Positions 1 through 16,683 of a stretch of DNA of 64,000 nt are shown piece by piece. The translations under genes and the position numbers were made by a program. Each line of letters starts with the position of its first letter. Position 1 is the stretch's first letter. This DNA comes from an uncultured Fluviicola sp. (lineage in GTDB: Bacteria; Bacteroidota; Bacteroidia; Flavobacteriales_D; Crocinitomicaceae), in contig NZ_CABHOL010000028.1 of NCBI RefSeq assembly GCF_902168135.1, positions 1 to 64,000 of the forward strand, given 5' to 3'. The notes under the pieces were generated by a model. It had not been told where the DNA came from, did not search any database, and saw only the letters and a program-made list of their open reading frames with translations.

Positions 1-1583
1 ATTTTCTGAAGATGAAGATGTCCGTTCGTCAGATGCCTCAATAGGGAAAGTGTATAAGGAACGACCATGTATCTTAAATCCCCAATAGCTTTTGCCCCCG
101 TTCCGTACAATCGTTCTGCAGTTCTGTATAAAATCGCTCTTGCAATTAGATCTTCATAATAGTTATTACTTACATCAGTTTCATCTGCAGATTTCATAAA
201 TTCTATAAAATTCCGTTGACGACCGCGAACTACCCACCAAGGTCCCATTTCCCATGTAATATCAAATTTTGCGAGATCTTCTTTGGCAAATTTCTGATGT
301 TTCGGGTTTCTTGCAAGCCATTTTTTCTGTTGAGCTTTGCGGTCTATCTGAGATAATTCATCGTTATATTGCCCTCTAGCTCTTTCATAATACCAGCGGG
401 TTTGACTTTTACCTGAGCTTGCAGGAGTCCAGACTTTTCTAGATAAATACTCCAGTTCTATATGAAATGGATGATTCGATGAAAAGTCTGCCTCGGAGAC
501 TTTGTTCTGAGTATTAGCATATTTGGAGATTAATGACACGATTTCCGGCTTTTTCCCCAGATCGCGAATAACTGTCAATTTTACCTGTACACAAACAGCA
601 TTTATGTTGGCATCCTTATATTTTCGCTGAGTCTGAAAAATGGAAGCTGTTGTCTGACCCCCATTGACAATCTGGAAATCTCTTATCGAAACAATTGACT
701 TACTGTCCCCGGAAATTTCAATGGATTCGGCAGTAGCTGAAATACCATTGTTATAAGCCATGAACATATGGGGTTCTCTCAGAATTGTATCTCTAATACC
801 TTTATTGATTGTTCCTCTGAATTGTAGAAAAGTTCGCACGTTCTGTTCTAAAAGACGTGCCCCATGATCTTTATAAATGGAGGCAAGAATTCTAGCAGGA
901 ATAACGCATAAATAAGATTCATAATCCTCATTCTTCTCTGGTGTTGGCAAACACGGAATCGCTTCTCCGAATGATTCAGTAAAATTAATTTCAATGGCTT
1001 GTTTACCTGTTCCTGATGTATGTATTCGGTGGATATATTCAATGTCTCGAAAGTGATAGTGGATCTGTAGATCGCCCATTTCTGATGGGTCTGGAACTTC
1101 TGTGGGAATAAGCATGTCGGACAGGACGTAAATATTCACTCTCACTATATCTTTGCTAATTTGATGCATTGTTTGAACAAAATCAAAGACAGGTGCCGTT
1201 TCTTCGATTCCTTCCATTTTTCCAGTTAGTATATTCTGCAAAAAACGGGTAGAAAGATTAATACCGGCTCTAATATCATCAGCATACAATCTGCCTAATT
1301 CGCTTGTTCCTTTGAAAATCGTAATGAAGAGATCCACGGTTTCATATCCTTCGCTGAGAGCGTAACCATTTATTTTGTGTACTCGATTTCCAATACTGTT
1401 TTCACGTATTTCACGGCATGGTATGGCAGCTTCTGTTTCTCCAGCTTCTTCCATATATTCAAGAATTACTTCTGTGAATTTTTCCTCTCGAATACCTCCT
1501 GTTTTATCAGATTCTATCAGATCAGATATATCTTGTAGTAACTCAGTCCTAAAGCGATTTATTTCAGTGTTAGTGGCAGACAT
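1..1583 (-). CDS. AIPR-family (abortive phage resistance) protein, 3' end beyond the window
   Basis: This gene is missing from the ORF track because its stop codon lies beyond base 1. From the ATG at 1583 the minus strand stays open for 527 codons. Residues ~240-520 match the AIPR core family (PF10592 as I recall it), with 'YNNGISATA' at ~277, 'VNGGQTTAS' at ~306 and 'YANTQNKV' at ~355. AIPR proteins are linked to phage abortive infection and occur beside Z1/MORC restriction clusters; their biochemical activity is uncertain. The N-terminal ~170 residues hold a 'VDLFITIF' stretch that could be a worn nuclease-like core, which is speculative. The start lies one base after the stop of the upstream ATPase gene, so it is the last gene visible in the defence operon. 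Confidence 0.82.
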   Translation of the reverse strand, partial: MSATNTEINRFRTELLQDISDLIESDKTGGIREEKFTEVILEYMEEAGETEAAIPCREIRENSIGNRVHKINGYALSEGYETVDLFITIFKGTSELGRLYADDIRAGINLSTRFLQNILTGKMEGIEETAPVFDFVQTMHQISKDIVRVNIYVLSDMLIPTEVPDPSEMGDLQIHYHFRDIEYIHRIHTSGTGKQAIEINFTESFGEAIPCLPTPEKNEDYESYLCVIPARILASIYKDHGARLLEQNVRTFLQFRGTINKGIRDTILREPHMFMAYNNGISATAESIEISGDSKSIVSIRDFQIVNGGQTTASIFQTQRKYKDANINAVCVQVKLTVIRDLGKKPEIVSLISKYANTQNKVSEADFSSNHPFHIELEYLSRKVWTPASSGKSQTRWYYERARGQYNDELSQIDRKAQQKKWLARNPKHQKFAKEDLAKFDITWEMGPWWVVRGRQRNFIEFMKSADETDVSNNYYEDLIARAILYRTAERLYGTGAKAIGDLRYMVVPYTLSLLRHLTNGHLHLQK

Positions 1584-1584
1584 T

Positions 1585-3381
1585 TTATTCAGTTTTTGTG
1601 TTTATTAATCTTTCTAAGGATTCGTAACTATTTCCATTCTTCCAATGGAATTCTTTGAACGGATCAATTGATGATGAATCAATAGAAAGTGAGTGACAAA
1701 AAGTTTGGTGAACTTCTTCAAATGATCCTCCATAACTAATTTTTGTCTTTGTTTTATTAGTGTCTTTTTCAGTTAATGGAAGGATATTAAATTTCAATAT
1801 TTTCTTTTCACCATCGTATTCTATACATCGTATTGGAGATGTTAATTCACTAATATACTCACGCTCAACACCTGTCTTTGCGTGTTTTTTCTTCCAATAT
1901 ATCTTTCTTCCAGCTTCTAATAGAATTGTATTATTCAGTTTTTTCAATTCATCAATTATTTCAAACACCAGTTCTAATTCTCTTCTATAAACAGGACTAT
2001 CGAGATCATCATGCGATAAAGGGTTCATGACAACTCTTAAGCAACTTTTTAATTTTTCAAAAGGATCGAATGTGAAGCCATTTTCATTAAGATATGATTC
2101 AAGTCTTGAGATTAGCGTATCTAACTTTGAAACAGCTACAATGTCGCCGCTTGAAAGTGCATCATACTTCTTGTAGTCAGGTAAGAAACGTTTTATCAAT
2201 CCTTCACAAATTTTACGCTGATAATTGGCACAGGCAGCATATTGCTTCATCCTAAAGTAATACTTGGATTTTTCTATATCATCTTCTCCAGGTAACCATG
2301 CGGGGAGATCAAAGCCTTTTGAGTGACGGTCAATATACATTTCTTGAAAATGCCATCTATTGTTTCCCAAATGGTTTTTGGCCAGTTCATACCATTGTCG
2401 ATCATAAGTAGTTAAGAAAATCTGGTGATCGATGAAGGTTTTTGATACTGTTCCTTGAATAATTGGATTTGTCAGGATGTCTAGCAAGGGAATTCTGTTA
2501 GAATTATCAAGTCCTGTAAAGATGTCGTCTAGAAAAAGAATCTTGTAATCAGGGGAAGGTACGGAAAGGTGTGCTGCAAGAAATATACATACCGCTAAGG
2601 CAGATAAACGGGCTTCATTTAGAAAATGATGATATTGTTCTCTTTGTTGATTCAAGTCTATTCCGAAATAAGATACGTTTACCTTTATTTCGGGCCTACT
2701 TTTCTTTAATGATTCTTCCGTAAGTTGAGAAAAAGACACCTCCATTGAATGATCAAAATAATGGAGTAAATGATTCAATGTTTCATTCAGATCTGCTAAT
2801 ATTTGATTGGCGCTTTGGGTAAAATCCTTGAGATTTATTTCGTCAGGACTTGTCCGGACAACCTCTAACAAAGCATTCATTTTTAGGTTTGTTTCTGGTC
2901 TGGAATAGACAGGGGTAGGAAGGTCAGCCAAAAGCCCGTCCATTGCAAACAAAAAATCAAATAGATTCACTTGAGGATCTTGAACAAAATGGACGCGTAA
3001 TAATTCCCTGTAAGTCATAAAACTTCTGCCACGAGCAACAGAACGAAGAAGCTCATCGTTTACACGTGTCCGATGTATATCGCTAGAAAAAGAAAATGTT
3101 TTTTCTTCGTTTTCTTTTTTGAAATCGGCTTGAATAAAAGGTTCTTCATCTAATTCTAGTTCTTGAGAAAAGACATTCTTAGTAAAGTGATAATCCGATT
3201 CAACTGATGCCCTAAACAGATCGTTCAGCGCTTTGTAAAAGGAACTTTTTCCACTTCCGTTTTCACCATAAATCAAGAGATTCTTTCCACCCTTGAGGTT
3301 GATGAAATATTTAGAATGCGCTTCTTCCTTCTCATTGTAAAAAGCTCTGTAGTTATTAATAGTGATTCGGCTAATTTTCAT
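1585..3381 (-). CDS. SMC/RecF-like AAA ATPase of the defence operon
   Basis: A 598-residue ATPase of the ABC/SMC/RecF type. It has Walker A 'GENGSGKSS' at 39-47, an SMC-like signature region around 254-272 ('NEARLSALAVCIFLA'), Walker B 'ILFLDDI' at 281-287 and an H-loop-like 'FLTTYD' at 322-327. The insertion between the Walker motifs is only ~230 residues, so this is a compact RecF/OLD-like head and not a long-armed SMC. Residues 370-598 form a helical C-terminal part of unknown role; 'NPLSHDD' at 453-459 recalls motifs in other abortive-infection ATPases. It starts 7 nt after the Z1 gene and ends one base before the AIPR gene. Related Z1 operons, as I recall them, often carry a PD-(D/E)XK (DUF4420-type) protein near here; no such motif is obvious in this one. 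Confidence 0.8.
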   Translation of the reverse strand: MKISRITINNYRAFYNEKEEAHSKYFINLKGGKNLLIYGENGSGKSSFYKALNDLFRASVESDYHFTKNVFSQELELDEEPFIQADFKKENEEKTFSFSSDIHRTRVNDELLRSVARGRSFMTYRELLRVHFVQDPQVNLFDFLFAMDGLLADLPTPVYSRPETNLKMNALLEVVRTSPDEINLKDFTQSANQILADLNETLNHLLHYFDHSMEVSFSQLTEESLKKSRPEIKVNVSYFGIDLNQQREQYHHFLNEARLSALAVCIFLAAHLSVPSPDYKILFLDDIFTGLDNSNRIPLLDILTNPIIQGTVSKTFIDHQIFLTTYDRQWYELAKNHLGNNRWHFQEMYIDRHSKGFDLPAWLPGEDDIEKSKYYFRMKQYAACANYQRKICEGLIKRFLPDYKKYDALSSGDIVAVSKLDTLISRLESYLNENGFTFDPFEKLKSCLRVVMNPLSHDDLDSPVYRRELELVFEIIDELKKLNNTILLEAGRKIYWKKKHAKTGVEREYISELTSPIRCIEYDGEKKILKFNILPLTEKDTNKTKTKISYGGSFEEVHQTFCHSLSIDSSSIDPFKEFHWKNGNSYESLERLINTKTE

Positions 3382-3388
3382 TTTAGGA

Positions 3389-6300
3389 TTATTGGGTAAA
3401 CACGGCTTTTATACTTTTTACTTTTTCATGGCTATCCAGATAATAGATCGTTTTACGCACAGAATGATCTCTGTCGTAAAGTACTTTAAACAGTTCTTCT
3501 GCCAAGGCAGCTCTTTTTTCTTTTATTGGTAAGTCTTTCGGAATAATAGATTCGAAGGATTCGTATAATGATTGTTTTTCCTGCTGCATGGATTCGGAAA
3601 AATACGTGCAGAAAATCAATGCATCCAGCATAGCAGCAAAATAAGATCTGATTGTACCAGTACCTAAAGCTTGCTCATTTCTGCCTGCTGCAACCATTAA
3701 TTCATACAGATGATCATACAACCACAACTGATTTTCTTCTGGATAAACAAGTGGAAACTTGTAGAGCACTTCATTTTTAATAAAATAAGTGTCTTTTTTC
3801 TGCTCACCGTTCACTCGTACCCAAGCTCCAAATAAGGTTGAATTGAAAAGTGCTGAGAGAAACCGTGCCTTTGAAGATTCCGAGCGTATTACCCAGCAAC
3901 TATCTGGAAAAGCAGCAGGTTGATCATGATAGCAAAATGTAACATATTTTGAACGTTTCAGACCGACGATATAATGTTCATTTTCTGTAAAATCCTGCTC
4001 AGTTTTAACTATAACCGAAGTAGGGTCATTCAAGTAGAACTGCTGAATCTCCTTCTCTGCATAAAATGGTACGGAGGTTAATCCAGATGCTTTTTCAGTA
4101 GTTAATATCACATTTGTATGTGATTTAAGTACCTCACTCAATTCATCATTTCCAGGATAGTATGGAACTAAACCACTATGAAAATCAGTTTCTTTCAAAA
4201 CATTCTGATAACTGTTTTCAATGAGACTCCTAAATGTTTTTTCACTTAGAGAACTTTTCCTGTTTGAATTACTCTTCTCAAGGTCATCTTCATCAGGATC
4301 GATATCATCCATATCCATCTCTTCTGGATAATCATACAATTGTTCCTGAAAAACTTCATTTACGGCATAAAGAACCTTTTCTTCGTTCTCCATGTATGGA
4401 AAGCTGATCGCTAGACCAATAATCGGAACATCACTATATGCAGAATCTTCTGTGCGAGGTTTTGGGTTCAATGGGTAAATCAATAATAAGGCGTTAGCTT
4501 CGTTCCTGTTTTTTCGGATACGTAAAGGACTAGGATGCTCGGTGGAAGTCTCTTTTCCGCTTTCAATCTTGTCTTTAATGGTTTCATCAAAGGCCTTGCT
4601 CAATTGGTCGTCATTGAGATCAATGTATTCGTGAAAGTTACCGATGATGTGCGCCTTTGTCAGCTCATAGTAAGACGATGTTTTTTCAGAATCGTCTTTC
4701 CGGAAGGAAAGGCCTATTTTCTGGTCTCCGAATATAACCTGGTTCTCATCATTGGCACTGCTATTCCTAATCAAAGCAATGGTCCAGTTAATAAGCTTAT
4801 TATTTAGAGCCTGTTTTTCTATATATTCCCTTAGCAAACCTGTGTGGAAAGATGGCTGAGATGATTGATATGCCGTAAGATACTCGATCACGTTTCTGAA
4901 ATTATTTTGACCCCGCCAGACCAGAGATTGCTTCTTGAGGTGTTTGCTTTCATTCGCAACACCATCTGGAGTTCCGAGCTTTTTGATAAGTTGTTGAGTG
5001 ATCAAATGATTTTGTTCGAAAAAGTCCTTTCGTGTTTTATCGAACTGCCAGGTTTCTTCCAGATTTCCTGAGAAACCAAAGGACATCATCTTCTTATAGC
5101 GGAATTTATTGGATGCAGTAATAGTTAAGACTCCTGTATGCGCTCTGACTTTCAAACCATAATCACGGGGTTTCTTTTTTAAGAGCCACATACGATCAAA
5201 TTCCGCCCGCATCTCTTCGGTTGCAGCTGTAATGTGTTTATAATTGCTTACTAAGTCTCCCGTTGTGAACAAGCGACAGAGATCCAGGTAACCTGGACGA
5301 TATCCAAACCAACGACCCATTTGCATGAGTGTATCATACATTTTGGAAGCCCGTAAGTAATAACTTACGGTCAAGCCCTCTAATGTAAGTCCACGTGATA
5401 GTTTGTTTCCTCCAACAGCAATTACCGAAAGTCCTTTTTTCTGATTTTCATAGTAATCAAGTGGTTGTATATTCTCTTGTTCCAGTCCTCCGAGTAATTT
5501 TGATCCATGAACAGCACGTACTCTGATCTTTGTTACTGCTGGAAGCAATTCCTGTTCCAGTTCGGTCCAATTTATCAATGTCATTCCTGAATCGCCGAAG
5601 CCGGGGAGTGATATTATTTCCTGCGTTTTAGGAATAAATTCGCGTTCCCACAATGTTTTCAACTCCTCCAAGAATTCGCGATTCCTAAATTCAATTCTGT
5701 TTTTATAGCGAAAAAGCTCCTCTTCGATTTTCAAAGCGATGTGGTTTTGCCAATCTATAAAACGTGTAATGTGCACCAACATTGAATTATGTACATTCAC
5801 TTGCCCTCTTGCGCGTCGGGCAGCACAAGACAGGATAAAATACTGAATGGCTTCTTTTAAAGAATCAGGTAATTCTTGTGGTTTTGCATCGTCTTTTTTA
5901 TGCCCATCCGGAATATAATTGAAGTTGGTTCCACGAATACTTTCTCTACTTACTTCACTATCGTAATAATCTTTTGGCTGATTATCATGAATTGGTTCGT
6001 ATAAATGAATTGGTAGTGAATTCTTAACAATCTCATCTTCTTCATCAGATGCACTTTCATATTGTTGATCTTCACTGACAATTCCGAAAAACTTCTCTGG
6101 TCCGATATAGTTGGAAGGAGGGGGGATATTGACAATAAAATCCCTTGGAAACAAATCTTCACCGACCGGATAATCTTTATTACCGACAATAATTTTCAGT
6201 CCTTTTCCAGGTTCCTTTTCATCTTTTGGAAGTGGAATAAATACATTAGCATAAGGTGTTGCCGTATATCCCACATAGGCACTCTTTCGAAACAAACACA

Positions 6301-7243
6301 ATAATGCACGGATTGATCCATTAATGGAAGAAACGCTGCTTTTACTAATATTGATAGATGCATTATCGGCCTCATCATCAATCAATAACATTGGAAGGTG
6401 ATTGATGATTTTGTGATCCGTTCCGGAAACATCTTCCCCGACCTTAGCAGATAACCACTGTATCAAGTTCTTTAACACAGCGTTGTTTTTCTTAACTACT
6501 ACAATTACAGGATCAGTCCCTCTGAGATTCAAGTTGATAGTCTCAGCTACATTTTTCCGAAAGTCGCCGTTTAATGCACTGCTCGTTAATGAGTGAGCAG
6601 GAACAGTTGGGTCTAATCGACCCACACCAATACGGTTATTGGACTGGATAAAACTCCGACTTGTTTCAGTATCATATCCCAGAAATCCTTCGTCGATTCG
6701 CAATTGGGTTTGGCTTCGTAACGAACTATGAATACCTGCAAGGACTATTATCAATTTATAACCGGCATCTGCCGCCTTCGTAATTAGTCCAACATAATTA
6801 GATGTCTTTCCGGATTGAACATGCCCCACAACTAATCCTCGCTTGTCAAATTCATCGTGAGCATCAGGATCAGCTAATCTATCTAAAATATTGTCTGTTA
6901 GTTCATCCAAACGAGAAATCACTTTAGGAGCTATTTTTTTATCATCTTCTAGATAAGTCTGATAACGTCTCCAAAATCGTCTTGATGATGCGTTTTGTGA
7001 CCATTTTTCAGTAACCCACGGTTCAATCTTGTCATTATCCAGAATCCGAGGAGCTTCTTGAGACACTCCTGTGACTTCTACCAATCTTGAAAATAGTAAT
7101 TCCTTATCCTCATTACTTAATGAAAGTAACTGACAGACTTTTTTAATGACATCATTTATTTTTTCGACTGTCTCAGGTGGGTCAAGATCCAGCAGATTCC
7201 GGCAGATTTTCTGCGCCTGTTCCAAAACTTTCTGATCACTCAT
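3389..7243 (-). CDS. Z1-domain superfamily II helicase/ATPase with a C-terminal target-recognition-like domain
   Basis: A 1284-residue protein. Walker A is 'GHVQSGKT' at 140-147, Walker B 'IDDEAD' at 288-293 and motif III-like 'GYTATPYANVF' at 325-335. The Z1 core follows around residues 640-710, with 'GGNKLSRGLTLEGL' and 'QMGRWFGYRPGY'. Z1 proteins are helicase-like ATPases of restriction clusters with MORC ATPases. This one is long for the family (my recollection is about 900 residues). The extra ~250 C-terminal residues resemble the specificity domain of TaqI/Eco57I-like enzymes: 'FPDSCWVI', then 'LSALFNSTLFGAWVRVNG', 'YKFPLV', a helical 'MLDALIFCTYF' and a final 'HSVRKTIYYLDS' segment. 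That likeness is by eye. The start codon overlaps the end of the MORC gene by 8 nt, implying translational coupling. Confidence 0.88.
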   Translation of the reverse strand: MSDQKVLEQAQKICRNLLDLDPPETVEKINDVIKKVCQLLSLSNEDKELLFSRLVEVTGVSQEAPRILDNDKIEPWVTEKWSQNASSRRFWRRYQTYLEDDKKIAPKVISRLDELTDNILDRLADPDAHDEFDKRGLVVGHVQSGKTSNYVGLITKAADAGYKLIIVLAGIHSSLRSQTQLRIDEGFLGYDTETSRSFIQSNNRIGVGRLDPTVPAHSLTSSALNGDFRKNVAETINLNLRGTDPVIVVVKKNNAVLKNLIQWLSAKVGEDVSGTDHKIINHLPMLLIDDEADNASINISKSSVSSINGSIRALLCLFRKSAYVGYTATPYANVFIPLPKDEKEPGKGLKIIVGNKDYPVGEDLFPRDFIVNIPPPSNYIGPEKFFGIVSEDQQYESASDEEDEIVKNSLPIHLYEPIHDNQPKDYYDSEVSRESIRGTNFNYIPDGHKKDDAKPQELPDSLKEAIQYFILSCAARRARGQVNVHNSMLVHITRFIDWQNHIALKIEEELFRYKNRIEFRNREFLEELKTLWEREFIPKTQEIISLPGFGDSGMTLINWTELEQELLPAVTKIRVRAVHGSKLLGGLEQENIQPLDYYENQKKGLSVIAVGGNKLSRGLTLEGLTVSYYLRASKMYDTLMQMGRWFGYRPGYLDLCRLFTTGDLVSNYKHITAATEEMRAEFDRMWLLKKKPRDYGLKVRAHTGVLTITASNKFRYKKMMSFGFSGNLEETWQFDKTRKDFFEQNHLITQQLIKKLGTPDGVANESKHLKKQSLVWRGQNNFRNVIEYLTAYQSSQPSFHTGLLREYIEKQALNNKLINWTIALIRNSSANDENQVIFGDQKIGLSFRKDDSEKTSSYYELTKAHIIGNFHEYIDLNDDQLSKAFDETIKDKIESGKETSTEHPSPLRIRKNRNEANALLLIYPLNPKPRTEDSAYSDVPIIGLAISFPYMENEEKVLYAVNEVFQEQLYDYPEEMDMDDIDPDEDDLEKSNSNRKSSLSEKTFRSLIENSYQNVLKETDFHSGLVPYYPGNDELSEVLKSHTNVILTTEKASGLTSVPFYAEKEIQQFYLNDPTSVIVKTEQDFTENEHYIVGLKRSKYVTFCYHDQPAAFPDSCWVIRSESSKARFLSALFNSTLFGAWVRVNGEQKKDTYFIKNEVLYKFPLVYPEENQLWLYDHLYELMVAAGRNEQALGTGTIRSYFAAMLDALIFCTYFSESMQQEKQSLYESFESIIPKDLPIKEKRAALAEELFKVLYDRDHSVRKTIYYLDSHEKVKSIKAVFTQ

Positions 7244-8726
7244 AATCCAATGTTTCTATTAATTGCTGATAATCACTGAATGGCTCTGTCATAAGTAATC
7301 TTCGCTTAATTAGTTCGTCGCTCATCCCTTGCTGTTTCCATCCGACAGCAAGTTCTTTCATCAATGAAATGATTTCTATATCTGCTGTTTTTTCGAAAGG
7401 TTTGAGCATGTTATCCGGAAATTCATTTTCTTTAGCAATTATAGCGGGACCGGGAACTGTTTCTTCGATTATCTTGAGCAATTTCTGAATTTCTTTTTTC
7501 TTGTCGGGAAGTTCATTCAAGAGTTTTTCAATAACAGGATGCTCTAGATTGATTCTGAAAAAATATCGACCATCTTTTACTATTTCTTTCCAAACAAATG
7601 AGAAATCTCCAGTTAATGATCGCTGGATTTGCTTCCCCCTATGCCTAAAAATCTGTTCAGCTTGAGTAACTACACTCATTGCGATAGCTTTCAGTTGCGG
7701 ACGCAAAGTTAGCGGAGGTCTTGCTCTGGATTTTTTGATGTCAATCTGCCATTCATGATCAACATTGTTTGGTAAATCAATCATGATTCTGGCTAATTTG
7801 TAATGAGATTTTTTACGTGTAATTCCTAGCCAGTCTGCAGCAAGTAGTAAGCGTTCATTTCGATAAATGTAAAAGCCCTGCAAAGCATCCCATCCACCTT
7901 CTCGTTGTTCGTTATCTATCCATACGGATTCGTCCAGTTTTGATCGGTGCGGAAGGATATAGGCCTTTATTTTTATAGAACCATTTTCCATAATTTCTTC
8001 CGGAAATGGTTGGGTTGCCGTTTCACCCCGCAGGAATGGATCCCAAGCTTTAACCGGAATATCGTTAAAGATGATTTTGAGTTTCCCAGTTTCCAAATAC
8101 CGGTGAAAGACCATTTCAATATGTCTTTTTACTTTTTCAGCAACTAAATAAAAATAATCTTCCGTATATTTCTTTTTGTTCAACTCAATTATCCGGTCTA
8201 AATAATCCCAAGATACCAAAGTTCCCTGATCCATTTCTTCGATCAGTTCAATGTCTCCTTTTTCCGCGACATTCAGAATTGTCCACCCTTCTGTTTTAGG
8301 AGAGGTCACATAATCTAAGTCCCATCTCCAAAAGGTAAGCGATTCTGACTTTTTTTTAGATATAACCGTAAACATTCTGCATTGAGACAGTGAAGCTGTT
8401 TTTAATCCAAGACCAAAACGTCCTAGATCACTTAAATCTCTTGCGGATGCAGGACTTTGACTACCTGGACGCATCGCTTGAATAAGCTCTTCTTCAAACA
8501 TTCCATTTCCATCATCCTTAAAAACAATACGTGACTTGTTGCCATCCCAGATAAAATTGATCCATACTGTGGTTGCTTTTGCAAAGATTGCATTGTCTAT
8601 GATATCAGACACAGCGGCTTCTGTAGAATAACCAAGATCACGAAGACTCTCCATCATAGATCCAGCTGGTGGAGCAGCATCTTGTTTTCTTATCTGTTCA
8701 TAATTCCTCTCTTCCATAGGCTGCAC
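7236..8726 (-). CDS. MORC/MutL-like GHKL ATPase of the defence operon
   Basis: A 496-residue ATPase with a Bergerat fold at the N-terminus. It shows an N-box 'AVSDIIDNAI' at 38-47, a G1 box 'DDGNGM' at 71-76 and a G2 box 'GRFGLGLKTAS' at 102-112. The first acidic residue of the N-box is Asp where many GHKL enzymes have Glu. The C-terminal half (~240-400) fits an S5-like transducer region of MORC/MutL proteins ('IDLPNNVDHEWQIDIKKSRARPP'-type segment, quoted in part). Prokaryotic MORC-like ATPases are known from restriction-modification clusters (Iyer, Abhiman and Aravind 2008) and probably act as DNA clamps. It overlaps the HNH gene by 29 nt if it starts at 8726; ATG at 8717 would shorten that to 20 nt. 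Confidence 0.88.
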   Translation of the reverse strand: MQPMEERNYEQIRKQDAAPPAGSMMESLRDLGYSTEAAVSDIIDNAIFAKATTVWINFIWDGNKSRIVFKDDGNGMFEEELIQAMRPGSQSPASARDLSDLGRFGLGLKTASLSQCRMFTVISKKKSESLTFWRWDLDYVTSPKTEGWTILNVAEKGDIELIEEMDQGTLVSWDYLDRIIELNKKKYTEDYFYLVAEKVKRHIEMVFHRYLETGKLKIIFNDIPVKAWDPFLRGETATQPFPEEIMENGSIKIKAYILPHRSKLDESVWIDNEQREGGWDALQGFYIYRNERLLLAADWLGITRKKSHYKLARIMIDLPNNVDHEWQIDIKKSRARPPLTLRPQLKAIAMSVVTQAEQIFRHRGKQIQRSLTGDFSFVWKEIVKDGRYFFRINLEHPVIEKLLNELPDKKKEIQKLLKIIEETVPGPAIIAKENEFPDNMLKPFEKTADIEIISLMKELAVGWKQQGMSDELIKRRLLMTEPFSDYQQLIETLDYE

Positions 8727-9696
8727 GATTAATTTTTTGTTTCAGTTCTTCCAGAGAAAGGGTTATTCCTTTTCGGCGGTGCACCATCCTGTGACAATTG
8801 GCACAGAGTACGATAAGGTCATTCAAAGAATTGGTCATTCTTTCTCCTGTTTCGTTATCGCCAAGAGGTGTCAAATGGTGGACTTCGATATAACCATTTC
8901 CCCAATCTCCATATATTTCCCCGAAATTGAAATTACATGCCTTACATGTTGTACCATGTTGTTTAATAGCCCTCTTTCTAAGCGCAGGATCTCTTTCCGG
9001 TTTACTAGATATATATACTTTTCTACCTCCTTCTGTTCGGCTTTCGCCTTCTTCATCCTTCTGAAATTGATCAGTTTCAATTTCTTGATCAGTTGTGTTT
9101 AGGATAAATCTGAAGTAGCTCTGAAAAGCACTTCTAAGATCCTTTCGACGCTTATTATCTTCACCTATATGTAATTCCATACTGATGACCTCTAGTTCTT
9201 CAATGTTTGTTACTTCGTAAAGGGAGCGATCTTGCTTGTTTATAGCAAACTCACTGAAGATAGTGTTATCAACTTGATTAGCATATGTCTGAATTGTGTT
9301 TCGTTGATAAGAAGTCCCATCTGGTTTTAGACCACCCTCAAGCCATTGTATGAACATCCTTTTTCGCGATTCTAAAATATCTTTTTTAATTGTATCTGCG
9401 ACATCCTTCAATTGATCTCTCTTTCCTGAAAATTCATTCCAAATATCTTTTTCCAGTTTGCCACCACCAGTCATTCCTTTACTTGAAGAAATCGGATCTA
9501 TTCGTTTAAAATTTGCTAACTTCAGAGAAACGCTGCTTATACTTCTTGAAAATCCAGAATTCAGATTCGATAAAGAAAGGAGATTACTCAATTTCTTGAT
9601 GTCGGGATTCTTACCATCCATCTGTCCAAAACTCAAACTAAAATAAAGGTTGAGCGCAAGTATCAATTCATTTCTATTCCAATCTGGATTCTTCAT
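8698..9696 (-). CDS. HNH endonuclease of the defence operon
   Basis: A 332-residue nuclease. The C-terminal ~90 residues are an HNH domain with a structural zinc site: 'CKACNF', the catalytic 'EVHHL', then 'CANCHRMVH'. The N-terminal ~100 residues ('NRNELILALNLYF ... KLANFKRIDP') are a domain seen ahead of HNH nucleases in many restriction loci, where it probably binds DNA. With two cytosine methyltransferases in the same transcript, it is the obvious restriction nuclease of the system, and I see no Vsr or PD-(D/E)XK nuclease here. The ATG lies 2 nt after the methyltransferase stop. Confidence 0.9.
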   Translation of the reverse strand: MKNPDWNRNELILALNLYFSLSFGQMDGKNPDIKKLSNLLSLSNLNSGFSRSISSVSLKLANFKRIDPISSSKGMTGGGKLEKDIWNEFSGKRDQLKDVADTIKKDILESRKRMFIQWLEGGLKPDGTSYQRNTIQTYANQVDNTIFSEFAINKQDRSLYEVTNIEELEVISMELHIGEDNKRRKDLRSAFQSYFRFILNTTDQEIETDQFQKDEEGESRTEGGRKVYISSKPERDPALRKRAIKQHGTTCKACNFNFGEIYGDWGNGYIEVHHLTPLGDNETGERMTNSLNDLIVLCANCHRMVHRRKGITLSLEELKQKINRAAYGREEL

Positions 9697-9698
9697 AA

Positions 9699-10754
9699 CT
9701 ATTGATTTTGAATCTGCTGATTAACAAATAAATAGTGAAGTAGCGCATATCCTGTATTCACACTTAAAGCATTTCCTGCCTGTTTGTATAACTGATGTTC
9801 ACTTACGCCTGAAGCAATTGCATTCTGATAAAAATCCTTTCCGAAACCTTGTAACTTCAAAGCTTCCCAGGGGGTAAGTTTTCTAACTGGGGTCGTATAA
9901 AGTACTTCTTTATCTGTTTCTTTATGAGAATGATTGTGTTGAATAAAATCATCAGAATAGTAATTGTCTTGACATGCCCTATGCATTTTTACCATAGTTG
10001 CTGTTAGGGTTCTGGCAATGTTTAAGTCTATCTGAGACTTACTTCTGAAATTTTTTGATCCGTCTGCTAGAATTGTGTGTTTGATTTTTTCCGATAAGTA
10101 ATATTTACTATCTACTTTCTTATCCAAAACTTCTAGTACATCATTAAATATGTGTAAGGAATGATCCTGAATCGATCTAAAATTTTCAGCAATTGCTCCT
10201 TCTGTGAGTTCGAGATCAAGAGCTCTTTTACTACAGACAAAAAAAACTCTTGCTCTCCGTTGTGGTAATCCAAAATTTTGTGAATCGAGCAACACATAGT
10301 TTACATATCTATATCCATGCTCTCTGAAAAAATCAAGAATTTTTTCAAGAGTAGCTCCTTTGTCATGTTGCAAAATATTCCGAACATTTTCAAGAACAAT
10401 AAATTCTGGTGATTTTTTGGCTAATAACTCATGAACACTAAACAAAATTTTCCCTCGTTCATCTTCAAGACCAAGTTGTTTTCCTAATAAACTAAAGGAC
10501 TGACAAGGAAAACCTCCGAGCAACAAATCAAACTCTGGGAGCGTTTGCAAATTTTCCTCACTAGAGGTGAAGTCCATCACATTGTTCATTCTGAGTTCTC
10601 CATTTAGATCATAGTTACTCTCATATGTTTTCAGTGCATGTGAGTCAATTTCTGAAAAGGCAATGCAATTCATATCGATACCGGTATCTCTTTCAAGAAG
10701 ATCTGCTGCGCGTCTAAATCCGCCAATTCCCGAAAATAATTCTACGTATCTCAT
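9699..10754 (-). CDS. DNA C5-cytosine methyltransferase (first of two)
   Basis: A 351-residue Dcm/HhaI-family enzyme that transfers a methyl group from S-adenosylmethionine to C5 of cytosine in DNA. Motif I is 'ELFSGIGGFRRA' at the N-terminus, the catalytic motif IV is 'GGFPCQSFS', motif VI is 'LENVRN', motif VIII is 'QRRARVFF' and motif X is 'QAGNALSVNTGYALL'. All core motifs look intact and the length is usual for a stand-alone m5C enzyme. The ATG overlaps the stop of the upstream methyltransferase as ATGA. The two enzymes differ greatly in sequence and probably recognise different sites, or different strands of one asymmetric site. Confidence 0.93.
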   Translation of the reverse strand: MRYVELFSGIGGFRRAADLLERDTGIDMNCIAFSEIDSHALKTYESNYDLNGELRMNNVMDFTSSEENLQTLPEFDLLLGGFPCQSFSLLGKQLGLEDERGKILFSVHELLAKKSPEFIVLENVRNILQHDKGATLEKILDFFREHGYRYVNYVLLDSQNFGLPQRRARVFFVCSKRALDLELTEGAIAENFRSIQDHSLHIFNDVLEVLDKKVDSKYYLSEKIKHTILADGSKNFRSKSQIDLNIARTLTATMVKMHRACQDNYYSDDFIQHNHSHKETDKEVLYTTPVRKLTPWEALKLQGFGKDFYQNAIASGVSEHQLYKQAGNALSVNTGYALLHYLFVNQQIQNQ

Positions 10755-12181
10755 TCAATAAAATCTTTTATTTCAAGGGCAATGGTTTCAGCAAGTTTTA
10801 CTGGAACTGCATTGCCGATTTGTTTGTACCAACTGTTCAGATTTCCTCTGAAAACATAGTCATCCGGAAACGTTTGTATACGTGCTGCTTCTCTGGGACT
10901 CAATCCTCTTGGTTGCTCGGGATGTATATACATATGACAATCAAACTTCATGTGAGAAGTTATCGTCTTTGAAACTTCGTCTCGTTTCAGTTTGTAATAT
11001 TTATCTTTGAAAATGTGTTCACGATTTTTGTAAACAAGAATATCTTGAATACACTCATGTAAAGAATTTGCTCCTTCAGGAAGACGGCGGAATATCTCCA
11101 AATCGTTGTCGTTATTGTAACGAGATTTGTGATTCCAAAGATATTTACTGCTCTTTCCTTTATTGATATCCTTTAAAAAATAATTTTGTTCAACGGTAAT
11201 GCCATTAACTGTATAACCATTATCATCACTTTCATAATCAATATTCAATTTATTCGGATTCGTACCAATCTCGGGTAATCCAAAAAGTGCATCTCCGAGT
11301 TTGTACCCTTGTCCGTTATAGTTGCCTGTTAGCAAACGTGTTTTTATCTGTTCAATACTGAATACATCTTTGCCTCCAATAAGGATGTAGCGGATTCTGC
11401 TTTGGGGAACGCCAAAGTTTTTAGCATCGAGAATCAATGGTGTAAAAAAGTATTCTTGGTTAGTTTCTAGGCGTATATCTTCTTCAACTTGATTTTCTAC
11501 TTTACGCATTCCGCGTACATTCTCCATGATGAAAAATTCAGGTTTTACAATTCCTAAGATCTGAACAAAGTGTTTGTATAATACATTGCGCTCATCATCG
11601 ATAAATCGTTTCTCTTGACTTGCTTGATCAATCTTGAAATTTTGTCTATTTGCGGTGGAGAATCCCTGACATGGAGGTCCTCCCGCGATCAGTTTTATTT
11701 TTTCAAGAAGCGGGTAGAATAGGTCAATGTTTGTAACGATTTCAGCTATATCACCATGAAAAAAACGATCCAGCGAGAGATTGTGATTGAAGTAATAGGT
11801 TTCTAAAGCATCCAAATAATTATCATTGACGAAAGCTGGTTTGAAGCCAGCATTTATAAGTCCTTGACTTAGTCCTCCTGCTCCGCTGAAGAAATCTGCA
11901 AATAACAACTCACCATCGGGTTCTTTTTTTAACTCAGGTAGATATTTCCATAAAACGGGATGGTTTTTAGCTTTATTCTTTCGAAGAGTGAAGTAGATAT
12001 GATTAAGTCTCTGAAAAAGCGAATCACTTAACCCAGCTTTATATACTTCGGAAATTTCATTCTTTTTGGCATTTTGAATTACAATGCTTTCAATTTGAAG
12101 GATTTTTTCAATTTCTTCAGCAAGTTTAGTGGCTTTATGCTTGAATTTGTTTCGATGATATTTATAGTAGAATTCAAGCAT
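10751..12181 (-). CDS. DNA C5-cytosine methyltransferase (second of two), first gene of the defence operon
   Basis: A 476-residue m5C methyltransferase. Motif I is 'DFFSGAGGLSQG' (~residues 96-107), motif IV 'GGPPCQGFS', motif VI 'MENVRGM', motif VIII 'QSRIRYILIG' and motif X 'QIGNAVPVKLAETIA'. It has an N-terminal helical, Lys-rich extension of ~90 residues that the other methyltransferase lacks. It is the promoter-proximal gene, so host DNA would be protected before the nucleases are made. The 488 bp between this gene and mraZ must hold its promoter, but I could not pick a clear -7/-33 pair on the minus strand. Confidence 0.93.
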   Translation of the reverse strand: MLEFYYKYHRNKFKHKATKLAEEIEKILQIESIVIQNAKKNEISEVYKAGLSDSLFQRLNHIYFTLRKNKAKNHPVLWKYLPELKKEPDGELLFADFFSGAGGLSQGLINAGFKPAFVNDNYLDALETYYFNHNLSLDRFFHGDIAEIVTNIDLFYPLLEKIKLIAGGPPCQGFSTANRQNFKIDQASQEKRFIDDERNVLYKHFVQILGIVKPEFFIMENVRGMRKVENQVEEDIRLETNQEYFFTPLILDAKNFGVPQSRIRYILIGGKDVFSIEQIKTRLLTGNYNGQGYKLGDALFGLPEIGTNPNKLNIDYESDDNGYTVNGITVEQNYFLKDINKGKSSKYLWNHKSRYNNDNDLEIFRRLPEGANSLHECIQDILVYKNREHIFKDKYYKLKRDEVSKTITSHMKFDCHMYIHPEQPRGLSPREAARIQTFPDDYVFRGNLNSWYKQIGNAVPVKLAETIALEIKDFIE

Positions 12182-12368
12182 TTAATTTGTTTTCTGTATA
12201 GGAAGCATCTTTAATTTTTTGTCACTTTTTAATACAAAAAGCTTTAAACTGGCAATTTGCCTGGTCCTCTCAAATTAATGAATGTGATTCAAGCGATAAA
12301 TATAAGAAATATTGCTTTTGATGTATTTAAATATTATAAGTTTTGCCTTATTAAATAACCACCCTCTC

Positions 12369-12390
12369 ATTATTGAGTTTTGTCAATAAT
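12369..12390. repeat. Perfect inverted repeat, possible operator
   Basis: Arms ATTATTGA and TCAATAAT (8 bp each) surround a 6-nt spacer. The element is AT-only apart from one G/C pair, has no T-tract, and lies in the divergent promoter region, so an operator is likelier than a terminator. Confidence 0.4.
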
Positions 12391-12403
12391 CGGATTGGAC
12401 TGT

Positions 12404-12443
12404 TTTTTTCATCTCCTTCTGTGCTTTTTTCATCTCCTTTTGT
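12404..12443. repeat. 19-bp direct repeat with 21-bp period
   Basis: Two copies of a T-rich 19-mer (TTTTTTCATCTCCTT[C/T]TGT) begin at 12404 and 12425 and differ at one base. A 21-bp period is two helical turns, which suits tandem binding of one protein on the same DNA face. Confidence 0.45.
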
Positions 12444-12499
12444 AAATGACAGAAAATGACTGACAAACCATTCTTTTTTTCCACAATCAAACAGTTGTT

Positions 12500-12514
12500 A
12501 CCACTTTTTACCAC
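12500..12514 (-). promoter_or_regulatory. MraZ-box-like pair facing the defence operon
   Basis: ACCACTTTTTACCAC is the reverse complement of GTGGTAAAAAGTGGT, two GTGG cores 10 bp apart. It is nearly the mirror image of the boxes next to mraZ (12621-12635). MraZ is known to bind tandem TGGG/GTGG-type repeats with about 10-bp spacing upstream of its own operon. Confidence 0.5.
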
Positions 12515-12610
12515 TAACTCAAAAAAGCATAAATATTCAGTAAAAACAGGAGTTTTTAATAATTTGTTGTAACCTTGTGTAGGTTGATTGCGTTAGAAGT
12601 TATCAACAAA

Positions 12611-12640
12611 GTGTAATTTGGTGGTAAAAAGTGGGTGATT
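12611..12640 (+). promoter_or_regulatory. mraZ: MraZ-binding repeats upstream of mraZ
   Basis: Three 10-bp steps, GTGtaatttg / GTGGtaaaaa / GTGGgtgatt, end about 30 bp before the mraZ start. This fits the tandem, 10-bp-spaced MraZ boxes known from other bacteria and suggests that MraZ autoregulates the dcw operon. The first copy matches only at GTG. Confidence 0.6.
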
Positions 12641-12669
12641 CTCCCTAATTTTACCCATTATTAATAGCT

Positions 12670-13131
12670 ATGGCTGGACTTGTCGGAGAATTTGAGGTGA
12701 AGCTGGACGGAAAAGGAAGATTTCTTTTCCCTGCCGGTTTGCGCAAACAACTCTCTCCGGAGGCTCAGGAACAATTTATGTTGAATAAAGGCTTTGAGGA
12801 ATGTTTGACTCTCTATCCCATGAACGAATGGGAAAAGTTGTCGGTAAAACTGTCAAAGCTGAATTTGTTTAAGCCACAGAACCGTATGTTCTACCGTTTG
12901 TTCCATCAGGGGGCAAAACAAATCGCGCTGGATAATGCCGGTCGTGTTTTGATTCCGGTAATGCACATGGAGCGGGTTGGTTTGGACAAAGATGTGATGC
13001 TGATTGCATACAACGACCGAATTGAGATCTGGGACAAGTCCAAATACTTCGAGTTGATCGATGGGAACATGGCTGATTTTGCTGATTTGGCAGATGAAGT
13101 AATGGGTGATTTGGGGAATGATGACGAATAA
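12670..13131 (+). CDS. mraZ: MraZ, DNA-binding regulator at the head of the dcw cluster
   Basis: A 153-residue protein of two SpoVT/AbrB-like domains. The N-terminal motif 'GEFEVKLDGKGRFLFP' is diagnostic, and the second copy carries 'ALDNAGRVLIP'. MraZ forms ring-shaped oligomers that bind tandem repeats upstream of its own operon and usually represses it. Length and position as the first dcw gene are normal. Candidate boxes lie directly upstream (12611-12640). The stop codon overlaps the start region of rsmH. Confidence 0.96.
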   Translation: MAGLVGEFEVKLDGKGRFLFPAGLRKQLSPEAQEQFMLNKGFEECLTLYPMNEWEKLSVKLSKLNLFKPQNRMFYRLFHQGAKQIALDNAGRVLIPVMHMERVGLDKDVMLIAYNDRIEIWDKSKYFELIDGNMADFADLADEVMGDLGNDDE

Positions 13132-14047
13132 TGATGCGACATACCACGTGCCTGTCATGTTGCAGGAGTGTCTGGATGGATTGAATATCAATCCGGACGG
13201 GATTTACGTTGATGTTACCTTTGGTGGTGGTGGTCACTCCCGTGCAATTTTCGAAAAACTTTCTTCAAAAGGCAGGCTGATTGTTTTTGATCAGGATCCG
13301 GATGCGCGTGCAAATGCATGGGAAGCTCCGAATTTTCATTTTGTAGCAGCCAATTTTGCTTTTCTAAAAAATCACTTACGAGTTTTGGGTATTCCGGCTG
13401 TTGATGGAATTCTTGCTGATTTGGGGGTTTCCTCTCATCAGTTTGATGATGCGAAGCGCGGTTTTTCCATTCGTTCCAATGAAGCGTTGGATATGCGTAT
13501 GAACCAGGCCGGTGATTTTACAGCTGCGAAAATTGTCCAGACTTACGATGAGGAACAGTTGGCTGCAATTTTTAGAAAATACGGCGAATTGGATCATCCT
13601 TTCAAGACAGCTGTCGAATTGGTGAAAGCACGGAATAAATCGAAAATAAAGACCACCGGTGAGTTGATGGAGGCTTTAATGCCCGTTGCTCCGAAGTTTA
13701 AGGATCATAAATTCTTTGCGCAGGTGTTCCAGGCGCTTCGTATAGAGGTGAACCAGGAAATGGACGTGCTGGAGAAGTTTCTGCTTCAGACAGCTGAGGT
13801 GTTAAAGCCGGAAGCTCGTTTGGTGGTGATGTCTTATCATTCCTTAGAAGACCGTTTGGTGAAAAACCTGATGAAACGCGGGAACCTGGACGGTTCGATT
13901 GAAAAGGATTTTTTCGGGAAGGTGCTGAAGCCTTTTGAAGAGGTGAATCGAAAACCGATTCTTCCGAGTGAAGAAGAGATTCAGCGGAATACACGTGCGC
14001 GTAGTGCGAAGTTGAGAATAGCTAAAAGAGTGACGGATGGAAAATGA
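13118..14047 (+). CDS. rsmH: 16S rRNA (cytosine(1402)-N(4))-methyltransferase RsmH (MraW)
   Basis: This enzyme methylates N4 of C1402 of 16S rRNA in the ribosomal P site with S-adenosylmethionine. The N-terminus 'HVPVMLQECLDGL', the SAM motif 'VDVTFGGGGHSRAIF' and 'GILADLGVSSHQFD' followed by 'RGFSIR' are typical. The ORF track starts at a GTG (13106); I prefer the ATG at 13118 (13121 is also possible), which leaves a 309-residue protein of usual length and a 14-nt overlap with mraZ. It overlaps the next gene by 11 nt. Confidence 0.95.
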   Translation: MMTNNDATYHVPVMLQECLDGLNINPDGIYVDVTFGGGGHSRAIFEKLSSKGRLIVFDQDPDARANAWEAPNFHFVAANFAFLKNHLRVLGIPAVDGILADLGVSSHQFDDAKRGFSIRSNEALDMRMNQAGDFTAAKIVQTYDEEQLAAIFRKYGELDHPFKTAVELVKARNKSKIKTTGELMEALMPVAPKFKDHKFFAQVFQALRIEVNQEMDVLEKFLLQTAEVLKPEARLVVMSYHSLEDRLVKNLMKRGNLDGSIEKDFFGKVLKPFEEVNRKPILPSEEEIQRNTRARSAKLRIAKRVTDGK

Positions 14048-14588
14048 GTACAGAGAACGGGAGGGTGTAAATCCGATGGATGCTGTACGTGGTAAGGCTC
14101 CCAGAGAAAAGTATTCGACGGATATACCTGTAAATGAAAAGCCGGGTAAGAAGAGCTCAAAGAAGACTGCTGCTGCCAGCGAAAAAACGAATGCGAAAAC
14201 GAATACCTATACAGATAAAAAGGCGGATACAAAAGCGAAGCCGGTTGGAAGTGCGAAACCAAAGCGTCAGAATTTGTTGATTCAGGTTTTGAACGGGGAA
14301 ATTTTAACCCGGGATTTTGTGTTGAATAACCTGACGTTCATCTTCTTCATTTTGTTCCTGTTGATGTTGATGGTGGCAAAAGGCTATTACGGAAAACAGT
14401 TGCAGAAGGATATTACGGATTTGCAGGCTGACGTGGATGCGCAGACTGCTGAATATATTGAGAACAAGGCGTGTTTGGAAGAATCGACTTCTCGTTACCG
14501 CCTGGTTCAGGCATTGGAGAAGCGGGGATTGAAAGAGACGGTCAATCCGGTGAAAGTGATACGATTAAAGCGAAAAGACAATGAGTGA
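14037..14588 (+). CDS. ftsL: FtsL-like bitopic division protein
   Basis: A 183-residue single-pass membrane protein in the ftsL slot between rsmH and ftsI. It has a long, Lys/Ala-rich cytoplasmic N-terminus (~1-90), one membrane segment around residues 100-117 ('LTFIFFILFLLMLMVAKGYY') and a periplasmic heptad-like coiled coil (~120-165) with a C-terminal 'ETVNPVKVIRL'. This matches the Bacteroidota FtsL-like family, which is diverged from E. coli FtsL. FtsL acts with FtsB/DivIC and FtsQ to activate FtsWI. The name rests mainly on synteny and topology. It overlaps both neighbours (11 nt and 8 nt). Confidence 0.8.
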   Translation: MENEYREREGVNPMDAVRGKAPREKYSTDIPVNEKPGKKSSKKTAAASEKTNAKTNTYTDKKADTKAKPVGSAKPKRQNLLIQVLNGEILTRDFVLNNLTFIFFILFLLMLMVAKGYYGKQLQKDITDLQADVDAQTAEYIENKACLEESTSRYRLVQALEKRGLKETVNPVKVIRLKRKDNE

Positions 14589-16683
14589 TAAAAAAGACTT
14601 GATGTGGCGGGCTTACCTGGTTTACATAGGTTTTTTCATTGCCTTGATTGTTGTGGTTGTGAAAACAATCATGATACAGTCTGAAGGCAGTGCTTCATTG
14701 TTTACGGCAACAAAAGAGAAAATCCCAACAAGAGCGGTGAAAAAATATCCGCGGCGGGGGGAGGTGCTTGATAGAAATTATACACCGCTGATTACGTCGG
14801 TGTCGTTCTTTGACATACACATGGATCCTACTGTTGTGGATCAGGAGATTTTTGACAAGGAGATCGGTGCTTTGTGTGAGGGGTTGAGTAAGGTTTTTCC
14901 TGAAACTTCTGCGCGTGATTTTGAAAATTACATCCGTAAGGGAAGGGCCAGGGGAAGAAGGTATATTACCATCAAGCTGAAGGCCACGAACGAGCAAAGA
15001 CACCGCCTGGAAGAACTTCCGATTTTCAATTTGGGAAGGAATAAAGGTGGATTGATCGACACGGATGAAACGATTTTGAGAAAGCGTCCGCATGGCGAGA
15101 TCCTGAAAAGAACATTGGGCTATTATCAGAACAACGGGAATTCGAAAGAGTTGCGTGTTGGTATTGAAGGTGCTTTCAATGAGATTCTGGCAGGTGAACC
15201 GGGTGAAGAAGTTGAACAGCGCATTTCTTCCGGCTGGAAAAAAACCGGGAAAATGATCCGTGAGCCTATTGAAGGAGCTGACCTTATTACTTCTATTGAT
15301 ATGGAAATCCAGGAAGTAGCACATTCGGAATTGTACCGCCAGTTGAAAAACCAGGGAGCAAAAAGTGGTTGCGTGATCGTAATGGATGTGAAGACCGGTT
15401 TTGTTCGTGCGGTTTCAAACCTTCAAATGGCTTCCGATGGAGAATATTACGAGTTGTACAACCACGCAATAGGTACCAAAGAGGTTCCTGGTTCAACATT
15501 TAAGCTGGCTTCATTAATGGCTGCTTTGGAAGATCAGAAGATCACACTCGATGATACGGTAAATGCGGTTGGTGAATACCAGTTCTATGATTTGAAACTA
15601 ACGGATTCTAATCCTTACGGATACGGACGTATTACCATTCGCAGGGCTTTTGAATTGTCTTCCAATGTGATTGCGCGAGTGATTAACAATGCTTACCGCA
15701 GAGAGCCGCAAGTGTTCATCGATCGTTTACGAACCTTCGGGATAGGAGATTCATTGGGAATTGATTTGCAGGGTGAGCCCAAGCCAACCTTATATTCGCC
15801 GGGAACTAAGCAATGGTCGGGAATTTCGCTTCCGTGGATGTCGATCGGCTATGAAGTGCAGCAAACGCCTTTGCAAACACTGGCTTTCTACAATGCAGTT
15901 GCGAATAACGGAACATTGGTTCGTCCGCAATTTGTAGAGCATATTCGACGTGGTCAGCGCATTGTGAAATCCTATAAGCCGATCGTTCTTCGTCCGAAGA
16001 TTTGTTCGGATAAAACATTGCGTTTGATGCAGGAATGTTTGAAGGGAGTTGTGAAACGAGGAACGGGAAGTGCTTTGAAGTCGGCCTTATTTGATATTGC
16101 CGGGAAAACGGGAACGGCTGTGGTGCAAAATGCCGATGGTCGTTACGGAGAAGAGGGAAACAAAACTTACCAGGCTTCTTTCGTGGGATATTTTCCGGCA
16201 GATGAACCGCTTTACTCGTGTATCGTAGTTGTTGCTGCGCCTTCTAAAGATATTTATGGAGCAACGGTTTCGGGAACAGTATTCTCTGCTATTGCGAATA
16301 AGGTGTACTCCAATTCTTTGAATTACCACAAAGCAATTAATGAAGAGAAGGAACGTATCAAAGATGCTCCGCTTATTAAGGATGGAAATATCAATGACCT
16401 GTTAGTGGTTTTAAAGCGCTTGCATTTGCCTTATCAAATGGATGCTTACAGCGAATGGTCGCGGGTGCGTGTTTCGGAATCACACATTTCGATTGTTCCC
16501 CGAAAAATTTCTTCAACAACAGTTCCAAGTGTTACGGGATTAACGGCTAAAGATGCGGTTTACCTGATTGAGCGCCTGGGAATGCATGTGTATATACGCG
16601 GAAGCGGAAAAGTAGTAAAACAAACAATCCCTGCGGGATCGCCAGCGGTAGCCGGAGGGTTAATGGAATTAATATTGGAATGA
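14581..16683 (+). CDS. ftsI: Division-specific penicillin-binding protein (FtsI/PBP3) with PASTA domain
   Basis: A 700-residue class B PBP that crosslinks septal peptidoglycan. It has an N-terminal membrane anchor (~11-28), a dimerisation/pedestal region and a transpeptidase domain with SxxK 'STFK' in 'VPGSTFKLAS', SxN 'SSN' in 'ELSSNVIARV' and KTG in 'IAGKTGTAVV'. A C-terminal PASTA domain (~640-700, 'VPSVTGLTAKDAVYLIERLG') is normal for Bacteroidota FtsI. It overlaps ftsL by 8 nt and murE by 4 nt (ATGA). Confidence 0.95.
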   Translation: MSDKKDLMWRAYLVYIGFFIALIVVVVKTIMIQSEGSASLFTATKEKIPTRAVKKYPRRGEVLDRNYTPLITSVSFFDIHMDPTVVDQEIFDKEIGALCEGLSKVFPETSARDFENYIRKGRARGRRYITIKLKATNEQRHRLEELPIFNLGRNKGGLIDTDETILRKRPHGEILKRTLGYYQNNGNSKELRVGIEGAFNEILAGEPGEEVEQRISSGWKKTGKMIREPIEGADLITSIDMEIQEVAHSELYRQLKNQGAKSGCVIVMDVKTGFVRAVSNLQMASDGEYYELYNHAIGTKEVPGSTFKLASLMAALEDQKITLDDTVNAVGEYQFYDLKLTDSNPYGYGRITIRRAFELSSNVIARVINNAYRREPQVFIDRLRTFGIGDSLGIDLQGEPKPTLYSPGTKQWSGISLPWMSIGYEVQQTPLQTLAFYNAVANNGTLVRPQFVEHIRRGQRIVKSYKPIVLRPKICSDKTLRLMQECLKGVVKRGTGSALKSALFDIAGKTGTAVVQNADGRYGEEGNKTYQASFVGYFPADEPLYSCIVVVAAPSKDIYGATVSGTVFSAIANKVYSNSLNYHKAINEEKERIKDAPLIKDGNINDLLVVLKRLHLPYQMDAYSEWSRVRVSESHISIVPRKISSTTVPSVTGLTAKDAVYLIERLGMHVYIRGSGKVVKQTIPAGSPAVAGGLMELILE

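Follow-up and report, generated by a model that had tools for sequence, protein, structure and literature searches.

A Z1 helicase with a TaqI_C-type target-recognition extension and a linked ABC ATPase in an MZA-like operon of an uncultured Fluviicola sp.

The first 64,000 nucleotides of contig NZ_CABHOL010000028.1 from an uncultured Fluviicola sp. (assembly GCF_902168135.1), denoted here as the window, begin with a defense operon of seven genes. In order of transcription, these encode two C5 methylases, an HNH nuclease, a MutL-like ATPase, a Z1 protein, an ABC ATPase, and an AIPR protein. The Z1 gene (3389-7243, minus strand) codes for a protein of 1284 aa, whose C-terminal extension comprises a target-recognition domain (TRD) of the TaqI_C type and a helical tail. 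This extension and the ABC ATPase encoded by the next gene replace the DUF4420 nuclease gene of an MZA-like operon. New are the pairing of a TRD with Z1 in a protein devoid of any methylase part, the tail linked to the ATPase, and the replacement of DUF4420; the tail and the swap of DUF4420 for an ABC ATPase were missed by the first-pass annotation of the locus. The parts of the Z1 protein and its putative partner are:

4319..7243, minus strand: Z1 motor core, residues 1-975 (Pfam PF10593, E 2.8e-80; MzaC models; motifs aligned with relatives)
4109..4318, minus strand: acidic linker, residues 976-1045 (junction alignment; tail lengths of 80 relatives)
3674..4108, minus strand: compact TaqI_C-type TRD, residues ~1046-1190 (Pfam match below cut-off; hhalign; AlphaFold; Foldseek)
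3392..3673, minus strand: helical tail, residues ~1191-1284, proposed ATPase docking part (tail model; 7/7 further ATPase loci)
1585..3381, minus strand: ABC (RecF/SMC-like) ATPase, partner of TRD and tail, in the place of DUF4420 (Pfam AAA_15/AAA_21; linkage)

In the Z1 core, the superfamily 2 (SF2) ATPase motifs VQSGKT and IDDEAD are intact and align with those of its relatives, and the Pfam Z1 domain lies at 5132-5863. The Pfam Z1 and PADLOC MzaC models (E 1.8e-156 for the latter) stop short of the last ~310 residues. The extension begins at residue ~976 (window 4318), i.e. at the acidic segment at or shortly after which unextended relatives terminate in the junction alignment. Z1 is the only domain that Pfam finds in the 1284-aa chain; no methylase domain was found, and the chain thus lacks the defining arrangement of type IIG enzymes (Eco57I/N6 methylase and TRD in the same chain).

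A specificity domain reminiscent of TaqI and type IIG enzymes had been proposed for this C-terminus on the basis of short strings, which are indeed found in the translation of 3389-7243. The assignment is borne out by profile and fold comparisons. A profile of the five known Z1 extensions (the window and four relatives) aligned by hhalign with a profile of 18 TaqI_C enzymes, picked independently of Z1 proteins, at 97.4% probability and E 1.4e-11, versus 0.2% probability in a control comparison. With residues 1030-1284 alone, TaqI_C (PF12950) is the sole Pfam match (E 0.0042), and it is again the top Pfam match for the Cyclobacterium homolog L032 (E 1e-4); the scores of 17.8 bits (window) and 22.8 bits (L032) do not reach the gathering cut-off of 26.5. 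The 255 extension residues gave 15 non-self matches in 396 genomes of the phylum, of which four were scanned with Pfam, all four being Eco57I methylases with TaqI_C. An AlphaFold model of the extension (predicted local distance difference test, pLDDT, 79; predicted template modeling score, pTM, 0.79) matched CamA, M.BseCI, MmeI, PglX, and TaqI in the PDB (Foldseek). Since the alignment underlying this model took in methylase TRDs (the Nostoc plasmid sequence described below was left out), the unbiased fold check is a weaker first model built from the five Z1 extensions only (pLDDT 61), for which MmeI, CamA, and M.BseCI make up the top 30 PDB matches, all at E 0.02 or higher. Single-sequence PDB searches with the whole Z1 protein or the extension found nothing. 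All five extended Z1 proteins retain the TaqI_C core, in which the NS of the NSxLF segment is almost invariant. Homology and fold of the TRD are computationally supported; judged from this homology, the domain likely reads DNA sites, and the Z1 motor would recognize its sites directly.

The fusion is as unusual among Z1 proteins as the first-pass annotation had supposed. Among 18 Z1 proteins in the 396 genomes, only that of the window exceeds 1019 residues, and four (L017, L018, L019, and L032) of the best 80 relatives in the GTDB species set carry the extension. As the latter scan relied on peptide patterns and retained only the top 80 of 587 relatives, it may have missed extended members in distant lineages. 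The unextended GTDB relatives and the protein lengths in the 396 genomes rule out that all Z1 proteins share this extension as their C-terminal domain. The cores of the five extended Z1 proteins fall into a single clade (Shimodaira-Hasegawa-like approximate likelihood-ratio test, SH-aLRT, 99). No description of a Z1-TRD fusion or a TRD-ABC pair was encountered in the literature searched, which covers the field in part. The closest homolog of the Z1 gene (L032:7998-11871, Cyclobacterium qasimii) is broken into three frames, with the breaks in or near A runs, which could be due to sequencing errors or gene decay.

Specificity had initially been attributed to the last ~250 residues as a whole. 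This holds for the TRD at ~1046-1190; the part with 'HSVRKTIYYLDS' falls within a distinct ~92-residue helical tail (~1191-1284), absent from ordinary TaqI_C enzymes, many of which terminate ~55-75 residues after the TaqI_C domain. A hidden Markov model of the tail, trained on 13 ATPase-linked proteins with Z1 proteins excluded, matches all five Z1 extensions (E from 7e-12, for the window, to 3e-8), while 40 unlinked TaqI_C enzymes gave no match (best E 1e-3). The linkage to the ATPase became apparent because TaqI_C and ABC ATPase matches fell side by side in genomes. The 396 genomes contain 13 non-self ATPase loci, 12 of which sit directly after a TaqI_C gene; all seven further loci from other genomes of the class lie directly after a tail-bearing gene. 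In total, 19/20 ATPase genes of the subfamily come after a TRD and/or tail gene; the exception (G201) is an ATPase fragment not preceded by a TRD gene. The window extension matches 9/12 ATPase-linked versus 5/129 unlinked TaqI_C genes (Fisher p 8e-9; the 141 genes of this test are the matches counted in the 396-genome search). The linkage of tail and ATPase is computationally supported, and we infer that the tail contacts the ATPase. The window ATPase shows the motifs GENGSGKS, LNEARLS, and FLDDIF and weakly resembles RecF/GajA/LmuB/mad3-like models and, also weakly, the PARIS AriA type. A scan of viral contigs with the ABC ATPase yielded no relatives.

Tail and ATPase also occur in other genetic settings. 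A recurrent Bacteroidota three-gene set (L113, L114, L119, L172-L178, and similar loci) consists of a gene for ~1100 aa, a tail-bearing type IIG-like Eco57I/TaqI_C methylase gene, and an ABC ATPase gene, downstream of which different helicase or other genes often lie. The product of the first gene is a PLD plus SNF2 helicase in L113, and the scanned loci encode an SNF2 helicase that bears a PLD-like domain; the set may represent a separate type of restriction system. On the Nostoc plasmid pANSO36B (L130:10979-13431), a stand-alone TRD-tail protein of ~340 aa is encoded directly before an ABC ATPase gene of the same subfamily, and no methylase remnant was found in ~4 kb upstream. In another locus (L118:7654-8019), an intact tail-bearing methylase gene is directly followed by an ABC ATPase gene that has lost a large internal part.

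According to a 2022 study, the core genes of all variants of MZA-like systems encode Z1, a PD-(D/E)XK protein of the DUF4420 kind, and a C5 methylase (PMC9523054). Among the best 80 relatives, DUF4420, detected with a local model, directly follows Z1 at 68 loci, and all 68 are unextended. At all five extended loci, including the window, an ABC ATPase gene comes after Z1 and DUF4420 is not there. Eight unextended loci show neither DUF4420 nor the ATPase after Z1; three of them lie at a contig end, and the other five (L026, L027, L058, L092, and L096), which do not, are possible further variants. A DUF4420 scan of the window genome gave no match, but neither did its controls.

The Z1-linked ATPases form one clade (support 96/94); a single set of the methylase-linked ATPases and the ATPase from Nostoc cluster with it. 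Between the two subclades, identity amounts to 18-25% in the TRD versus 41-64% in the Z1 core, i.e. divergence is much quicker in the extension, with the tail keeping up with the TRD. This pace fits a changing specificity.

The other genes of the operon are:

10751..12181, minus strand: C5-cytosine DNA methylase, the operon's first gene (Pfam PF00145, E 1.4e-57; HaeIII-like in the PDB)
9699..10754, minus strand: C5-cytosine DNA methylase (Pfam PF00145, E 1.9e-66; HhaI-like in the PDB)
8698..9696, minus strand: HNH endonuclease, candidate cutting subunit (Pfam HNH, E 1.2e-5)
7236..8726, minus strand: MutL/MORC-like GHKL ATPase, MzaB-like (HATPase_c_3, E 1.7e-29; PADLOC and NCBIfam MzaB)
3..1583, minus strand: AIPR protein, MzaE-like (Pfam AIPR, E 4.5e-85; PADLOC and NCBIfam MzaE)

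The contig begins inside the AIPR gene, at window base 1, and the C-terminus of this gene is cut off. Both C5 methylases are full length, with the Pfam family match spanning each from end to end; their HhaI-like and HaeIII-like PDB matches do not reveal the specificity. The idea that two C5 methylases point to an asymmetric TRD site was dropped, as L017-L019 each show only one. The HNH slot of the operon looks freely exchangeable. Both extended and unextended relatives have a NOV_C (nuclease-like) protein there (L017:5744-6538, L018:5747-6538, and L022:5686-6459), and L036 has a DUF2971 protein. The operon adjoins an mraZ-rsmH-ftsL-PBP cell-division cluster in divergent orientation (window 12181-16683).

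We favor, with moderate confidence, the reading that the TRD, the tail, and the ABC ATPase encoded by the next gene constitute a portable targeting unit, common to type IIG-like methylase/SNF2 systems, which has replaced DUF4420 here and reads the site for the Z1 motor. TRD-tail and ATPase seem to be one portable unit because the same ATPase goes with the same domain in a different restriction system. More tentatively, and with slightly less than even chances in our judgement, the three parts could be a self-contained site-recognition cassette that moves among unrelated machines, residing on the methylase in the SNF2 systems, on the motor in the Z1 system, and alone on the plasmid, and substituting for DUF4420. 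If so, the role of DUF4420 proteins in ordinary MZA-like systems would be to recognize sites or to license the motor.

In the proposed mechanism, the TRD would bind an unmodified site, and the tail would hold the dimerizing ABC ATPase, which would act as a gate or as a clamp for the complex on DNA. RecF/SMC-type ABC ATPases dimerize on DNA. Engagement of TRD and ATPase would then license the Z1 motor for ATP hydrolysis and movement, and the HNH nuclease would cut, assisted by the MutL-like ATPase and the AIPR protein, while the two separate C5 methylases would protect the host's own sites. The sequence of site reading, ATPase engagement, Z1 licensing, and HNH cutting is suggested by analogy. 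Canonical MZA-like operons would require a separate reader, perhaps DUF4420.

Several observations weigh against this reading. The tail occurs without an adjacent ATPase gene in L122 and L124, and L019 has no obvious nuclease gene between the methylase and MutL genes. The TRD of the Z1 protein lacks a segment of ~60-80 residues common in type IIG TRDs, a segment also missing from some methylase-borne TRDs (L114, L115, L124). The TRD tree does not resolve one origin, so a single acquisition with subsequent fast change and a later replacement of the TRD are both possible; moreover, relaxed constraint could produce the same fast change of the extension.

It is conceivable, but in our view unlikely, that the TRD no longer reads DNA and that the tail docks an ABC ATPase doing new work, with site choice left to the HNH protein, the ATPase, or another subunit. 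The tail and not the TRD distinguishes the ATPase-linked proteins, and the TRD is compact and fast-changing. Nevertheless, the TaqI_C core with its NS is kept in 5/5 members and models well, methylases bear compact TRDs too, and the neighbor has a TRD and/or tail at nearly all ATPase loci (19/20). Guidance of modification, with the Z1 protein and the ATPase bringing a separate C5 methylase to the sites, would agree with the usual cooperation of TaqI_C TRDs with a methylase and with the two C5 methylase genes of the operon. It is improbable, however, as both enzymes are full length and C5 methylases own their recognition region, as M.CglI and M.NgoAVII need no partner (PMC4267653), and as unextended loci also have C5 methylases. 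Binding of a phage protein instead of DNA, with the extension as a sensor or decoy (like TRD-binding DNA mimics), appears improbable as well: PARIS AriA-type ATPases, to which the window ATPase is weakly similar, sense the phage protein Ocr (PMC12839542), and BrxX in complex with Ocr is among the PDB matches of the TRD model, but nothing specific indicates protein sensing, and the match concerns the DNA-reading part of BrxX in general. A chance similarity or an assembly join, to which the weak single-sequence Pfam match might point, is refuted by five independent genomes of one clade with the same junction and by the agreement of hhalign and Foldseek.

A motor with its own presumed site reader makes target choice of MZA-like systems, for which no account was found in the literature searched, accessible to testing, since a definable sequence should then govern restriction. 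With the tail as a marker, two-gene recognition units of TRD and ABC ATPase can be sought in further defense systems, and the exchange with DUF4420 hints at the role of this uncharacterized core protein.

Among known systems, MZA (mzaABCDE; PMC9523054) and its C5-methylase relatives with Z1, DUF4420, and AIPR (PMC2292703) share the order of MutL-like ATPase, Z1, AIPR, and C5 methylase with the window. DUF4420 is a core component there, whereas the window harbors an ABC ATPase in that place, plus a TRD and tail on Z1. The window proteins match MzaB (E 2e-109), MzaC (E 1.8e-156), and MzaE (E 8e-79) of PADLOC; the NCBIfam scores (424, 634, and 330 bits, respectively) are all under the equivalog cut-offs, for which reason the proteins are regarded as MZA relatives and not as equivalogs. 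In the position of MzaD (DUF4420), between the Z1 and AIPR genes, lies the ABC ATPase gene. MzaA, a sigma-like factor that occurs in only a few related systems (PMC9523054), has no match among the seven operon proteins.

CglI and NgoAVII likewise combine a Z1 motor with a C5 methylase, the latter working alone (M.CglI/M.NgoAVII; PMC4267653). Their motors hydrolyze ATP only once the B3 partner holds an unmethylated site (PMC4267653), and the same switch by site recognition is presumed for the window. In CglI and NgoAVII, the R-protein uses its B3 domain to read the site in trans and its PLD domain to cut (PMC4267653); the presumed reader of the window is part of the motor chain, and Pfam finds neither a B3 nor a PLD protein among the operon proteins. 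The loci encoding a type IIG-like Eco57I/TaqI_C methylase, a PLD-SNF2 helicase, and an ABC ATPase (L113, L114, L172) have the TRD type, the tail, and the subfamily of the directly downstream ATPase in common with the window. They carry the TRD on an N6 methylase, with a separate SNF2 motor, whereas the window has it on the motor and encodes its C5 methylases separately.

The layout of type ISP and DndH-like proteins (SF2 motor, active or dead methylase, and TRD in one chain) is present in part, with motor and TRD in the Z1 protein and no methylase domain found. Type ISP enzymes are a precedent for a TRD on an SF2 helicase chain. In DndH, too, a type II-like TRD shares the chain with an SF2 helicase part, but this chain contains an inactive helicase of the SNF2 type, an inactive methylase, and a restriction endonuclease, with no Z1 and no such tail reported (PMC10853773). 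DndD and DndE provide a parallel to the two-gene unit, an ABC ATPase gene being paired with a sequence-reader gene and associated with different modification enzymes (PMC10853773); DndE is a ribbon-helix-helix protein, whereas the putative reader of the window is a TaqI_C TRD.
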